Program-made: the position numbers and the translations under genes | The notes under the pieces: model-generated | The model's input: only the letters and a program-made list of their open reading frames with translations | Databases searched by the model: none | Told to the model about the DNA's origin: nothing | Source of the DNA: Mycolicibacterium aubagnense | GTDB taxonomy: Bacteria; Actinomycetota; Actinomycetes; Mycobacteriales; Mycobacteriaceae | DNA length: 64,000 nt | Reading direction: 5' to 3' | Assembly: GCF_010730955.1 (NCBI RefSeq) | Contig: NZ_AP022577.1 | Location: 4,154,001 to 4,218,000, forward strand | In this document: positions 33,436 through 36,118 of the stretch, one piece after another | How the letters are laid out: each line of letters starts with the position of its first letter | Numbering within the stretch: position 1 is the stretch's first letter

Positions 33436-33588
33436 ATGAATGTCTTTCGCACCGCCGCCGTCCGCTGGGTAGCCAAGCGGGTCCGCGCCCGAGCACACCT
33501 GACCCCGCAGGAGCGACACAACATTCGGCTGTCGTCCACACCGCTGGCCGTCATCTCGGCGTCGATCGGCGCACACCCCTACCGCTGA
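33436..33588 (+). CDS. 50-residue basic protein, paralogue 1, upstream of the M-box
   Basis: A 50-residue basic protein with GACAGGAG upstream of ATG. Residues 1-20 are Arg/Ala-rich and amphipathic; the second half has TPQERHNIRLSSTPLAVISA and ends SIGAHPYR. A second protein at 34124 has the same length and about 60 percent identity, with TPQERHN, TPLAVISAS and GAHP shared exactly. The pair brackets a magnesium riboswitch. I do not recognise the family. The 264 bases upstream hold only weak promoter-like TTGACG copies at 33325 and 33348 and a loose inverted repeat. Confidence 0.75.
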   Translation: MNVFRTAAVRWVAKRVRARAHLTPQERHNIRLSSTPLAVISASIGAHPYR

Positions 33589-33654
33589 CTACTCCGTCAC
33601 GCCCGGCGAGCCGGCTTGGATTCAACTTGACGGGCCACAAACGGCCAGGTTATG

Positions 33655-33830
33655 TTTCCCAGGTCAGCACCTCGCTAGGCGAGGCTCCTGAACGAACACA
33701 AGCCACTGATCCGACGACGTCGAGAGACGCCCAGGGTCAGGACAGGTCTCCCCGGATTAAGGGGTTACCCAAAGTGGCTATCCGCCCCGGTGGATTACGT
33801 CGTTCAGTGCCGAAGCTCTGACGAGAGGGG
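33655..33830 (+). promoter_or_regulatory. M-box (ykoK leader) magnesium riboswitch
   Basis: The segment carries the ordered conserved blocks of the M-box aptamer: GCTAGGCGAGGCTCCTGAAC (33674 on), AGGGTCAGGACAGG, TTAAGGGGTTACCC, AAGTGGCTATCCG and CAGTGCCGAAGCTCTGACGAG (to about 33825). GTCAG at 33663-33667 can pair with CTGAC at 33818-33822 to close P1. The M-box folds on Mg2+ and lowers expression of magnesium uptake genes. Downstream are a short frame at 33836, two small CDSs and a NRAMP-related transporter. Ends are approximate. Confidence 0.9.
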
Positions 33831-33835
33831 TGTAC

Positions 33836-33940
33836 GTGGCGCCGAGATGCACTGGCCCGTTATGGCCGTTGCGGTCGCCGTGTCCTTCCCCTGCGTGTTG
33901 TCGAAGTTATGTGGCACAACTGTCCCCGGTGGGGGCCTGA
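33836..33940 (+). CDS. Possible 34-residue Pro/Cys-rich leader ORF after the M-box
   Basis: GTG at 33836 follows GAGAGGGG, which is the 3' edge of the M-box. The frame encodes 34 residues with seven Pro and four Cys (VAPRCTGPLWPLRSPCPSPA and on) and stops at 33940. An ATG at 33847 opens another frame of 35 codons. Pro-rich leaders sense translation speed in enteric mgtA. That analogy is speculative; the frame could be chance. Confidence 0.3.
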   Translation: MAPRCTGPLWPLRSPCPSPACCRSYVAQLSPVGA

Positions 33941-33960
33941 CGGCGAGGAGGTGAGGACAC

Positions 33961-34071
33961 ATGAAACCTGACGATGGTCCGAGTTCCAGTCCGGAGCGAA
34001 AACCCAACTCCGACAATTTCATTTCTATCCTCCCGCGACCTTGCCGGCTCTTCATCGGCATGGCCGTCTGA
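33961..34071 (+). CDS. Possible 36-residue protein with a near-perfect ribosome site
   Basis: AGGAGGTGA, an exact anti-16S match, sits nine bases before ATG at 33961. The 36-residue product (MKPDDGPSSSPERKPNSDNF, then a hydrophobic ISILPRPCRLFIGMAV) has a polar N-half and a short hydrophobic C-half. It lies between the M-box and the second 50-residue gene. No family is recognised. The strong ribosome site is the main support. Confidence 0.5.
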   Translation: MKPDDGPSSSPERKPNSDNFISILPRPCRLFIGMAV

Positions 34072-34123
34072 TCGACGGTGCCTGACGCAGGCTCGCGGGA
34101 CATATCCCGGTAGGAGACCTGCC

Positions 34124-34276
34124 ATGACCGTATTCCGTAGTGCCGCAGTAAATCGCATTGTTCGTCGGGTGAGCGTTCGCGCTCGGATGACCCCGCAGGA
34201 ACGGCACAACCTTCAGATGTCGCACACACCGCTCGCGGTGATCTCGGCGTCTCTCGGGGCGCACCCCAACTTCTGA
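34124..34276 (+). CDS. 50-residue basic protein, paralogue 2, downstream of the M-box
   Basis: A 50-residue protein with TAGGAGACC before its ATG. It resembles paralogue 1 at 33436 throughout: MTVFRSAAVNRIVRRV at the start, MTPQERHNLQMSHTPLAVIS in the middle, and SLGAHPNF at the end. The N-terminal 22 residues hold seven Arg and could form an amphipathic helix. It lies 81 bases before the transporter start with a strong hairpin between. Co-transcription suggests a role in metal homeostasis, perhaps as a transporter-binding microprotein; no direct evidence. Confidence 0.8.
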   Translation: MTVFRSAAVNRIVRRVSVRARMTPQERHNLQMSHTPLAVISASLGAHPNF

Positions 34277-34291
34277 TCCGTTCGGCCGCAC

Positions 34292-34321
34292 GGTCCGCCC
34301 ACCGATTCCGGTGGGCGGACC
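34292..34321 (+). terminator. Strong hairpin between the small gene and the NRAMP-related gene
   Basis: Perfect 13-bp arms, GGTCCGCCCACCG at 34292-34304 and complement at 34309-34321, around loop ATTC. There is no T-tract. It may be a partial terminator or an mRNA-stability stem that lowers expression of the transporter relative to the small gene. Confidence 0.6.
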
Positions 34322-34357
34322 CCAGCTGTGCTGCCATTTCCCGAGAGGAATCTCGAC

Positions 34358-36118
34358 ATGGCCCTCTTCGCCCGTATCCCGCACCCCTCCGGCGAAACCT
34401 CAGTAACGCAACGTGATTCACCACGCACCGCGGTGCTCGACACCGCGCACGTCGGCGACATCGTCGGCGCGCTGGGCACCATCCGCACCGACGAGACCCG
34501 CACCGGTCGCAGCCGCTGGCAGCGATTGAAGATGCTGCTGGTGGTGATGGGGCCCGGCCTCATCGTCATGGTCGGGGACAACGACGCCGGCGGCGTCGCG
34601 ACCTACGCGCAGGCCGGCCAGAACTACGGCATGGCACTGATGTGGACGCTGGCGCTGCTGATTCCGGTGCTGTACGTCAACCAGGAGATGGTGGTCCGAC
34701 TCGGTGCGGTCGCAGGAGTAGGGCACGCGCGCCTGATCTTCGCCCGCTTCGGCAAGTTCTGGGGCGCGTTCAGCGTCGGTGACCTGCTCATCGTCAACGC
34801 CTTGACCATCGTCACCGAATTCGTCGGGGTAGCCATGGCGCTGAGCTACTTCGGGCTGCCGAAGTCGATCTCGGTGCCGCTCGCCGCGGTGCTGTTGTTC
34901 GCCGTGGTGGCCGGCGGTTCGTTCCGCCGTTGGGAGCGCTTCATTTTCGCGCTGATCGCCATCAACATCGTGATCTTCCCGCTGGCGTTCATCGTGCACC
35001 CGTCGGCGTCGGACACCGCGCGCGGCCTGATCCCGTCATTCCCGGGTGGCCTGAACTCGACGCTGTTGCTGCTGATCGTGGCCATCGTCGGCACCACCGT
35101 CGCGCCGTGGCAATTGTTCTTCCAGCAGTCCAACATCGTCGACAAGCGCTTGACCCCCAAATGGATTCGTTACGAGCGGATCGACCTGTGGATCGGCATC
35201 GTCGTGGTGATGGTGGGTGCGGTGGCGATCATGGCCGCTGCCGCCTTCGGGCTCGGCGGCACCGCCGCGGCCGGGAACTTCACCGATGCGGGTGCCGTGG
35301 CAACCCAGTTGGGCCGGCAGGTGTCGCCCACCGCGGGCGCGCTGTTCGCCATCCTGCTGCTGGACGCATCGCTCATCGGGGCCAACGCCGTCGGGCTCGC
35401 CACCACCTATGCACTGGGTGACACCTTGGGTAGGCGGCACTCGTTGCACTGGAAGGTCGGTGAGGCGCCGGTCTTCTACCTGGGTTATGCCGCGCTGCTC
35501 GCGGTGGCCGCCGCAGTGTCGTTCAGTCCGGATCACGTGCTGGGCCTGCTCACGCAGGGCGTGCAGGCGCTGGCCGGGGTCCTACTGCCGTCGGCGACGG
35601 TGTTCCTGGTGCTGCTGTGCAACGACAAGGCCGTGCTGGGTCCGTGGGTCAACACCATGCGGCAGAACATCATGGCCGGCGTGATCGTCTGGGCGCTGGT
35701 GCTGCTGTCGCTGGCCCTGACAGCCGCGACGTTCTTCCCGAATCTGACTGCCGGACAACTCGAATGGGGATTCGGGGCCGGGGTGGCGGTCGGCGTGCTC
35801 GGTGGTGCCGCCATCGCCGCCGCGACGCTCCGGTCGCAGCACAGGCAACGGCAGCGGGCCGCGGTTGAGGTGGCCGCCGAGTTCGGTGGCCTGGACCCTG
35901 AGCAAGTGGAAGACCTGGACGAGCAACCAAACGACCGCGCCGTCCGGAAAGCCCTGCGGAACCAGGAGCGGGACAGCTTCCGCACGCCCGCTCTGGACAC
36001 CTTGGACCGGCCCGGCTGGTCGCCGCTGCGGGTGGCGGGCATGGTCGCGCTGCGGGGTTACCTGCTGGTGGCTGTGGTGCTGGTCGTGGTCAAGGTTGCC
36101 GAGGCGATCGGCGGTTGA
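34358..36118 (+). CDS. NRAMP-related divalent metal (probable Mg2+) transporter
   Basis: A 586-residue membrane protein of the SLC11/NRAMP fold with about eleven or twelve helices. The two metal-site motifs are changed: helix 1 has DAGG at 76-79 where NRAMPs have DPGN, and helix 6 has APW at 249-251 where they have MPH. Loss of the helix 6 Met fits the NRAMP-related Mg2+ transporters (NRMT), whose Clostridium member is also under an M-box. A charged cytoplasmic insert (about 480-560) precedes the last helix. GAGAGGAA precedes ATG at 34358. Mg2+ rather than Mn2+ is inferred from motif and riboswitch. Confidence 0.88.
   Translation: MALFARIPHPSGETSVTQRDSPRTAVLDTAHVGDIVGALGTIRTDETRTGRSRWQRLKMLLVVMGPGLIVMVGDNDAGGVATYAQAGQNYGMALMWTLALLIPVLYVNQEMVVRLGAVAGVGHARLIFARFGKFWGAFSVGDLLIVNALTIVTEFVGVAMALSYFGLPKSISVPLAAVLLFAVVAGGSFRRWERFIFALIAINIVIFPLAFIVHPSASDTARGLIPSFPGGLNSTLLLLIVAIVGTTVAPWQLFFQQSNIVDKRLTPKWIRYERIDLWIGIVVVMVGAVAIMAAAAFGLGGTAAAGNFTDAGAVATQLGRQVSPTAGALFAILLLDASLIGANAVGLATTYALGDTLGRRHSLHWKVGEAPVFYLGYAALLAVAAAVSFSPDHVLGLLTQGVQALAGVLLPSATVFLVLLCNDKAVLGPWVNTMRQNIMAGVIVWALVLLSLALTAATFFPNLTAGQLEWGFGAGVAVGVLGGAAIAAATLRSQHRQRQRAAVEVAAEFGGLDPEQVEDLDEQPNDRAVRKALRNQERDSFRTPALDTLDRPGWSPLRVAGMVALRGYLLVAVVLVVVKVAEAIGG

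Follow-up and report, generated by a model that had tools for sequence, protein, structure and literature searches.

The 64,000-nucleotide stretch of the Mycolicibacterium aubagnense genome analyzed here, referred to as the window, covers positions 4,154,001 to 4,218,000 of contig NZ_AP022577.1; the genome (G000) has a size of 6.3 Mb in two contigs. The window contains an M-box (ykoK) Mg2+ riboswitch followed by a short leader open reading frame (ORF) named uORF2, a basic microprotein of 50 residues, and a transporter of the SLC11 fold with the binding-site residues of NRAMP-related Mg2+ transporters (NRMT). As judged from the sequence, these four components probably form a unit that switches on the import of Mg2+ when cellular Mg2+ drops. 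The same order of elements, comprising the aptamer with its promoter-like pair, uORF2, microprotein, hairpin, and transporter, recurs in four close relatives and, in a looser form, in the Mycobacteriaceae at large. The closest named matches of the window microprotein belong to two mycobacterial records and to Mycolicibacterium sp. CBMA 234 and CBMA 226 (loci L191–L194). The elements of the locus are:

33436–33588, plus strand: microprotein 1, 50 residues, a paralogue probably outside the M-box transcript
33627–33656, plus strand: predicted promoter of the sigma-70 type for the M-box transcript, TTGACG-18-TATGTT
33664–33836, plus strand: M-box (ykoK) Mg2+ riboswitch aptamer
33946–33954, plus strand: full-length Shine-Dalgarno (SD) sequence of the leader ORF, AGGAGGTGA, invariant in the window and the four relatives
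33961–34071, plus strand: leader ORF uORF2, 36 codons, beginning MKPDDGPSSSPERK, chosen by its SD sequence alone
34124–34276, plus strand: microprotein 2, 50 residues, between the riboswitch and the transporter
34292–34321, plus strand: perfect 13-base-pair hairpin between microprotein 2 and the transporter
34358–36118, plus strand: NRMT-type SLC11 transporter, 586 residues

The aptamer matches the Rfam model RF00380 over its full length (model positions 1–169, cmscan) with a score of 143.9 bits relative to a cut-off of 44 and an E-value of 1.5e-32. An earlier note, made from the letters of this DNA, had placed an M-box at 33655–33830 and proposed this Infernal comparison, which bears the assignment out with slightly different boundaries. 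All the features that it named are present; however, it overlooked the conserved leader ORF, the promoter-like pair, and the 13-base-pair hairpin. The aptamer is on the same strand as the transporter and ahead of it, with the start of the transporter gene 522 nucleotides past the aptamer. Mg2+-dependent switching of the aptamer is predicted. The promoter-like pair agrees with the consensus at nine of 12 positions, is expected 0.2 times in shuffled sequences, and ends seven nucleotides ahead of the aptamer. The pair TTGACG-18-TAYSTT or TATGGT was recognized by eye at the same place in L191–L194. Because the pair lies between microprotein 1 and the aptamer, the transcript is predicted to start near position 33660, which probably leaves microprotein 1 outside it. 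Control of both microproteins by the M-box is thus unlikely, and the short genes that had been described between the riboswitch and the transporter are represented there by microprotein 2, whereas microprotein 1 is positioned upstream of the likely promoter of the riboswitch.

The transporter gene begins with the ATG at 34358, which is preceded by an SD sequence, and its product matches the Pfam family Nramp with 242.9 bits. The nearest chain of solved structure is NRMT from Eggerthella lenta (EleNRMT, PDB 7qia), which resembles the window protein in fold family and binding-site residues (186.4 bits, E-value 8.2e-54). By contrast, the best other chain scores 54.0 bits (E-value 1e-13), which is 132 bits lower. 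The motifs DAGG in helix 1 and TTVAPW in helix 6 occupy the same columns as in EleNRMT, TTVA being aligned with TTIA of 7qia, and the methionine is lost. According to the available part of PMC8806188, the NRMT signature is DxxG/TxxA(T), whereas the canonical NRAMP site includes A/CxxM. The canonical motifs DPGN and A/CxxM are absent from the window protein, and the NCBIfam model of MntH scores 100 bits, below its cut-off of 430. The SLC11-fold transporter with DAGG and APW motifs announced in the earlier note is therefore confirmed, and the comparison of NRMT with NRAMP that the note proposed places the protein closer to EleNRMT. The window protein extends approximately 125 residues at its C-terminus beyond the part aligned with EleNRMT. 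Its Mg2+ transport is a prediction from the sequence, and import of Mg2+ by this transporter is very likely.

The distribution of NRMT has been surveyed in 401 Mycobacteriaceae genomes, in each of which up to three candidates were scored; absence here means no match at an E-value of 1e-100. Forty-two matches with E-values up to 1e-100 were obtained. An M-box is located within 900 nucleotides upstream of each of the 21 closest, and in 19 of these loci the microprotein is positioned between the M-box and the NRMT gene. Of the 21 more distant matches, seven are within 4.5 kb of a listed M-box, whereas a microprotein within 400 nucleotides is absent from all of them. The NRMT-like ORFs located behind M-boxes number 27, of which 25 have the DAGG/TTVAPW residues, one has DAGS/AVVMPW, and the remaining one is fragmentary and lacks these sites. 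The SLC11 gene with DAGS/AVVMPW (L117, 693–1962 past its M-box) may represent an intermediate or a carrier of a different metal.

D’Halluin et al. (2026, PMC12810186) described a mycobacterial class of M-boxes followed by ‘manganese transporter-type’ genes, and the M-box-linked SLC11 genes with NRMT residues are here taken to be this class. In proteoliposomes, EleNRMT also moves Mn2+ (available part of PMC8806188). However, Mn2+ is very improbable as the metal of both transporter and aptamer, which is what the published label implies, given the DxxG/TxxA site residues, the absence of the methionine, and the 132-bit distance to the best chain other than EleNRMT. The match to RF00380, the likeness to EleNRMT, the site residues, and the genome survey support the claim of the earlier note that the M-box and a Mg2+-type SLC11 carrier form one system. 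The description of this system as uncharacterised has been weakened, since NrmT genes of Clostridium acetobutylicum were reported to be under M-box control in 2014 (Shin et al., available part of PMC4072509) and the mycobacterial class was published in 2026. The leader of C. acetobutylicum resembles the window in having the M-box aptamer ahead of an Nramp-related Mg2+ transporter; however, it employs an intrinsic terminator, and neither a leader ORF nor a microprotein is described for it in the available part of PMC4072509, whereas the window has a leader ORF, microprotein, and hairpin between the M-box and the transporter.

The ORF named uORF2 was described in both M-box leaders of M. tuberculosis, those of pe20 and rv1535, where it has a strong SD sequence (SD2) and a proline at position 7 and is translated (PMC12810186). 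The same study reports Rho-dependent termination in the leader and identifies uORF2 with Rv1805A, whose role is given as unclear and which is considered a probable protein, specific to mycobacteria. In the window, an ORF with a strong conserved SD sequence starts 124 nucleotides past the aptamer, lies between the aptamer and microprotein 2, and begins with MKPDDGP, which includes Pro7. It thus has the characteristics of the uORF2/Rv1805A class, the assignment being based on the published features and on a comparison with loci of other genomes that precede ORFs recognized by eye as PE/PPE-like. The pe20 and rv1535 leaders and the window share the order of aptamer, strong SD2, uORF2 with Pro7, and operon, and NRMT in the window takes the place of the PE/PPE genes of M. 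tuberculosis pe20.

The leader ORFs were compared at 104 M-box loci from 62 genomes and 16 genera, which include 100 loci chosen among the matches listed (every listed locus of the same genus and a selection of the rest), three loci of the same genome, and the window. Selected by the strength of the SD sequence alone, a leader ORF with at least five SD bases was found at 92 of the 104 loci, 53–159 nucleotides past the aptamer, and the number of SD bases is 8–9 at 84 loci. One locus of the M. aubagnense genome is probably represented twice; one copy was dropped from the counts of stem lengths and of acidic residues with prolines (n = 91), and both were kept in the totals of 104, 92, and 27 given above and of 76 microprotein copies given below. 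Typical starts of uORF2 are MSPSDSPYP, MSSSDSPDR, MPSGDSPYS, and MKSGDSPYP, and a core resembling D-S-P-Y is present in 70 of the 92 ORFs from eight genera. Seven loci from g22 and g24 start with VD(D/E)PPSR instead. The class is represented in Nocardia (g23), Tsukamurella (g30), Prescottella (g10), Speluncibacter (g26), Rhodococcus (g22), and Gordonia (g9); therefore, it is not confined to mycobacteria. By contrast, PMC12810186 calls uORF2 specific to mycobacteria. In the loci surveyed, it is mainly the start of uORF2 that is conserved.

The leader ORFs of the g22 and g24 loci L101, L103–L106, L115, and L140, which begin with VDDPPSR or VDEPPSR, are located ahead of large genes. Some of these genes may encode a Mg2+ P-type ATPase or MgtC, as judged from their first residues. 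Other M-box loci (L041–L049, L051, L052, L054, L055, L057, and similar ones) have different small ORFs of 64–85 residues past uORF2, starting with MTAVLxDEVVT or MVAIAYTDI, which are presumably of the rv1535 type.

The combination of an acidic residue at positions 2–7 with a proline at positions 3–9 occurs in 80 of 91 uORF2 sequences, compared with 79 of 422 other SD-led ORFs of the same loci, and in six and nine of 91 cases when uORF2 is read in its two shifted frames; this criterion was set after the sequences of uORF2 had been seen. The same applies to a D-x-P pattern (68 of 91 versus one of 422), which was not used as a test. The Fisher p-values of these comparisons take no account of relatedness among the sequences. 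The column entropy is 0.55–0.65 bits at D-S-P and 1.97–3.35 bits 5–17 positions past the aspartate. Codons were analyzed in 66 unique sequences after a further 16 loci could not be anchored and duplicates had been removed. A serine follows the conserved aspartate in 59 of the 66, and its codon is AGT in all 59, which originate from seven genera (g1, g10, g13, g23, g26, g27, and g30; for example L041–L100). Similarly, the serine three codons ahead of the aspartate, usually codon 2, is encoded by AGT in 47 of 48 unique cases. AGT is rare, accounting for 5.4% of the 129 serine codons in five genes of the window. The invariance of AGT may be caused by slow decoding or by an RNA element; pairing of the AGT segment with the leader showed no excess at the 92 loci (mean z 0.19, 5/92 below −1.64).

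In the close relatives, codons 1–14 of uORF2 differ by two or three nucleotides, whereas the part after codon 14 differs by 4–19 nucleotides with ratios of nonsynonymous to synonymous substitutions (dN/dS) of 0.57–1.12 in six pairs, and the C-terminus is replaced altogether in L193. A conserved start combined with a poorly conserved and replaceable C-terminus favors a cis-acting leader over a protein that functions in trans. Therefore, uORF2 suits a leader such as MgtL of Salmonella better than a trans-acting protein, with a C-terminus that appears at most weakly constrained. It has been suggested that Rv1805A is a functional small protein with a regulatory role or a place in a transporter. 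The conserved N-terminus is in line with this suggestion, as are the expression in M. tuberculosis (PMC12810186) of the uORF2 homologue Rv0115A in a context other than an M-box, the presence of a uORF2-like frame ahead of three of 20 microprotein copies that lack an M-box (L181, L182, and L190), and dN/dS below 1 past codon 14 in four of the six pairs. However, the differences in codons 15–36 and their replacement in L193, the restriction of low entropy to D-S-P, and the conservation of the N-terminus partly at the level of codons make a function of uORF2 in trans unlikely.

The closest working precedent for a cis-acting uORF2 is MgtL. When Mg2+ is low, ribosomes dissociate at the EPDP sequence of MgtL; the RNA adopts another fold, a Rho-dependent terminator becomes masked, and transcription of mgtA proceeds (available part of PMC11282234). 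In MgtQ, Asp2 and Glu5 are needed to open the start of mgtB (available part of PMC8092293). Like uORF2, MgtL (ahead of mgtA in E. coli and Salmonella) and MgtQ (ahead of mgtB) are short ORFs with early acidic residues, accompanied by prolines in MgtL, that precede a Mg2+ importer. The early acidic residues and prolines of MgtL are found in uORF2 at the frequencies given above, and the M. tuberculosis homologues of the uORF2 leader have Rho-dependent ends inside an M-box leader. MgtL and MgtQ are linked to Rho or to a stem masking the start codon, and no sequence homology to uORF2 is claimed. Their leaders are not known to contain an M-box. By analogy, uORF2 would add a second, ribosome-based Mg2+ sensor to the operon. 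In the literature searched, no paper linking a leader ORF of an M-box to sensing of the MgtL type was found, the nearest ones listed dealing with mgtQ of Salmonella and with Sec/YidC arrest peptides, and the terms ‘nascent’ and ‘leader peptide’ are absent from PMC12810186.

The two microproteins of the window are identical in 32 of 50 residues (64%), with a dN of 0.25 and a dS of 1.10, from which it follows that they are not chance ORFs. Both match the hidden Markov model of the family (hmmsearch), which was built from 32 members. Microprotein 2 has dN/dS of 0.2 to 0.53 in all ten ortholog pairs, and microprotein 1 has a dN of 0.068 and a dS of 0.358 relative to the copy at the same place in L194. 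The match to the family model together with dN/dS rules out a chance origin and confirms both the paralogy and the conservation suspected in the earlier note. Neither sequence matches a Pfam or NCBIfam model at E-values up to 0.1, which speaks against membership in these families. The members are basic, with a mean net charge of +7 over the 32, and share the motif LTPQERxNL...AVxxASLGxH. AlphaFold predicts three short helices with a low predicted local distance difference test score (pLDDT 62.8), and the model was not used.

The microprotein is present in 83 of the 401 Mycobacteriaceae genomes at an E-value of 1e-3. Draws of 298 genomes from the order and 296 from the phylum, which overlap with the 401, contain matches at 1e-6 in 20 and three genomes, respectively, all of them Mycobacteriaceae. 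Among the best 76 copies (E-values up to 3.2e-9; a further 24 weaker matches were not counted), 42 are preceded by a listed M-box 208–316 nucleotides away on the same strand, and the other 34 have none listed within 0–700 nucleotides upstream. M-boxes near the copies and near the NRMT genes were looked up in a subset of the matches listed, to which the absences refer, and 21 loci around copies away from listed M-boxes were rescanned with Rfam: 20 remained negative, and in one an M-box is truncated by the end of the contig. NRMT was not found in these 21 loci, and it is absent at an E-value of 1e-100 from 36 of the 61 carrier genomes. The neighbors of the M-box-free copies differ from locus to locus, as compared by eye, and therefore do not reveal a function. 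Since the microprotein also occurs without an M-box or a close NRMT gene, it probably acts in trans. The best guess from these sequences is a trans-acting small protein of the low-Mg2+ response.

In G312, a copy with no M-box follows a uORF2-like frame (L190). By its position, we presume that this may be the Rv0115A–Rv0115B pair. The pair is mentioned in PMC12810186, and beyond its mention of Rv0115B no paper on the microprotein was found among the titles and beginnings of abstracts in the literature on small proteins, Mg2+, mycobacteria, and Nramp.

The microprotein could alternatively be a cis-acting leader or attenuator of NRMT whose end is coupled to the hairpin behind it. It is directly upstream of 19 of the 21 closest NRMT genes, and its conserved C-terminal motif is close to the stop codon. 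In the window, the region 34274–34400, which includes the perfect hairpin, folds at z −4.6, and the 13-base-pair stem is kept with G-U changes in the four relatives, as judged by eye. Stems following M-box-linked copies are on average longer than those in shuffled sequences (7.1 versus 4.9 base pairs). However, a stem of at least nine base pairs follows just eight of 33 M-box-linked copies and five of 20 free ones, and the hairpin is therefore not a family-wide element. Together with the 34 copies without a listed M-box, the carrier genomes without NRMT, and the purifying selection on microprotein 1 despite its position upstream of the likely promoter, this renders a role as leader improbable.

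Another role considered for the microprotein is that of a partner dedicated to the regulation or assembly of NRMT. Each of the 21 genomes that contain one of the closest 21 NRMT genes carries the microprotein somewhere, and second copies are present beside the same locus in three of the four close relatives. This assignment is rather unlikely in view of the 36 carrier genomes without NRMT, the lack of a copy within 400 nucleotides upstream of all 21 more distant NRMT genes, the absence of NRMT around the 21 copies away from listed M-boxes, and the weak structural model. The view of the earlier note that riboswitch, carrier, and microproteins form one magnesium system is weakened with regard to the microproteins, which are probably not a dedicated part of NRMT: one of them is probably outside the M-box transcript, and most of the carrier genomes lack NRMT at the threshold used.

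The second copy is upstream in the window and in L194, and downstream of NRMT in L191 and L192; it was not found in the stretch of L193 that was compared. In L191 it is preceded by a seemingly decayed leader without an aptamer, as judged by eye. Simple co-transcription of the second copy with NRMT in the relatives is not supported, given this leader and, in L192, a hairpin with six T’s between NRMT and the copy. The second copy would be a local duplicate, probably released from the control of the riboswitch.

A sequence of events can be proposed for a unit comprising the M-box, uORF2, the microprotein, and NRMT. With Mg2+ bound, the M-box would keep the leader in a state of early termination, as measured for the Rho-dependent pe20 leader of M. 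tuberculosis. At low Mg2+, the start of uORF2, which is rich in aspartate and proline and contains rare codons, would cause ribosomes to pause or drop off in cis, as in MgtL. The drop-off would gate Rho or a downstream start, and an aptamer-based and a ribosome-based Mg2+ sensor would be arranged in series, for which the chances appear slightly short of even. Import of Mg2+ by NRMT would follow. The microprotein would take part in trans in the response to low Mg2+, not as a subunit of the transporter but probably through its net charge of approximately +7, which would let it bind RNA, ribosomes, or the membrane; this step is tentative. A broader generalization is more speculative still: across the Mycobacteriaceae, Mg2+ starvation may be sensed twice on the same mRNA, by the M-box and then by ribosomes that translate a leader ORF rich in aspartate, proline, and rare codons and abort when Mg2+ is low. 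Such a leader ORF would be the actinobacterial equivalent of MgtL, having evolved within riboswitch leaders, and the new family of basic microproteins in the gated operon may serve the Mg2+-starved cell in trans, including in genomes without the transporter.

Several observations weigh against this interpretation. The loci L065, L075, L086, L094, L096, L111, L112, L126, L127, L128, L133, and L134, dropped before the 92 were counted, leave 12 of 104 without an ORF led by a strong SD sequence. Pro7 is present in just 60 of the 92 uORF2 sequences, and the window has DDGPSSSP in place of the common DSPYP core. The start of uORF2 has too few changes to separate a constraint on the peptide from one on the nucleotides, and the invariant AGT codons point to a constraint on codons or RNA; the part past codon 14 is not fully neutral, with dN/dS as low as 0.57. 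Pairing of an anti-SD sequence with SD2, modeled on pe20 and evaluated by duplex energies at the 92 loci, showed no excess (mean z −0.18, 10/92 below −1.64), and the GTGTCC/GGACAC pairing of the window is not kept in the relatives. The main termination site of pe20 is upstream of uORF2, and a uORF2-lacZ fusion is well expressed (PMC12810186), which a strongly abortive peptide does not predict. Finally, the C-terminal motif of the microprotein is missing or located behind a stop codon in four of the 19 NRMT operons (G322, G267, G085, and G354).

The M-box ahead of NRMT (2014), the biochemistry of NRMT (2022), and uORF2 (2026) are already known. As far as the literature searches go, the new elements are the NRMT site residues in M-box-linked SLC11 genes of mycobacteria and their relatives, the occurrence of uORF2 outside mycobacteria with evidence of a role in cis, and a family of microproteins associated with the M-box. 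If the proposed reading is true, the ‘highly conserved uORF’ of the M-box leaders of M. tuberculosis is a cis-acting sensor and not a protein, and the ‘Mn2+-type’ class of M-boxes should be relabeled as serving Mg2+ import. Likewise, the microprotein family, which neither Pfam nor NCBIfam covers with a model, would be placed in the context of Mg2+ starvation and acquire a conserved motif as well as a list of carriers, some of which have the transporter and some of which lack it.

Two further features of the window may be related to translation:

33880–33892, plus strand: weak candidate anti-SD pyrimidine tract that pairs with the start region of uORF2 (z −1.8)
34342–34355, plus strand: SD sequence of the transporter, CGAGAGGA, invariant in the window and the four relatives, in a small inverted repeat CGAGA-GGAA-TCTCG

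An anti-SD platform as a general feature of the leaders is not supported by the duplex test at the 92 loci. The inverted repeat around the SD sequence of the transporter, in the form CGAGA-GGAN-TCTCG, is found in the window, L191, L192, and L194, and may provide extra control of translation.

The M. aubagnense genome appears to contain four M-boxes, two of which (L008 and L009) are positioned near both ends of the 6.06-Mb contig G000:C1. Their flanks share 8.7 kb with 99.3% identity and 55 gap positions. Such nearly identical flanks at the ends of a contig indicate that L008 and L009 probably result from an overlap of the circular chromosome, so that one locus was counted twice and the number of M-box loci in the genome is three instead of four. 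At L008/L009, the NRMT frame is split or shortened.

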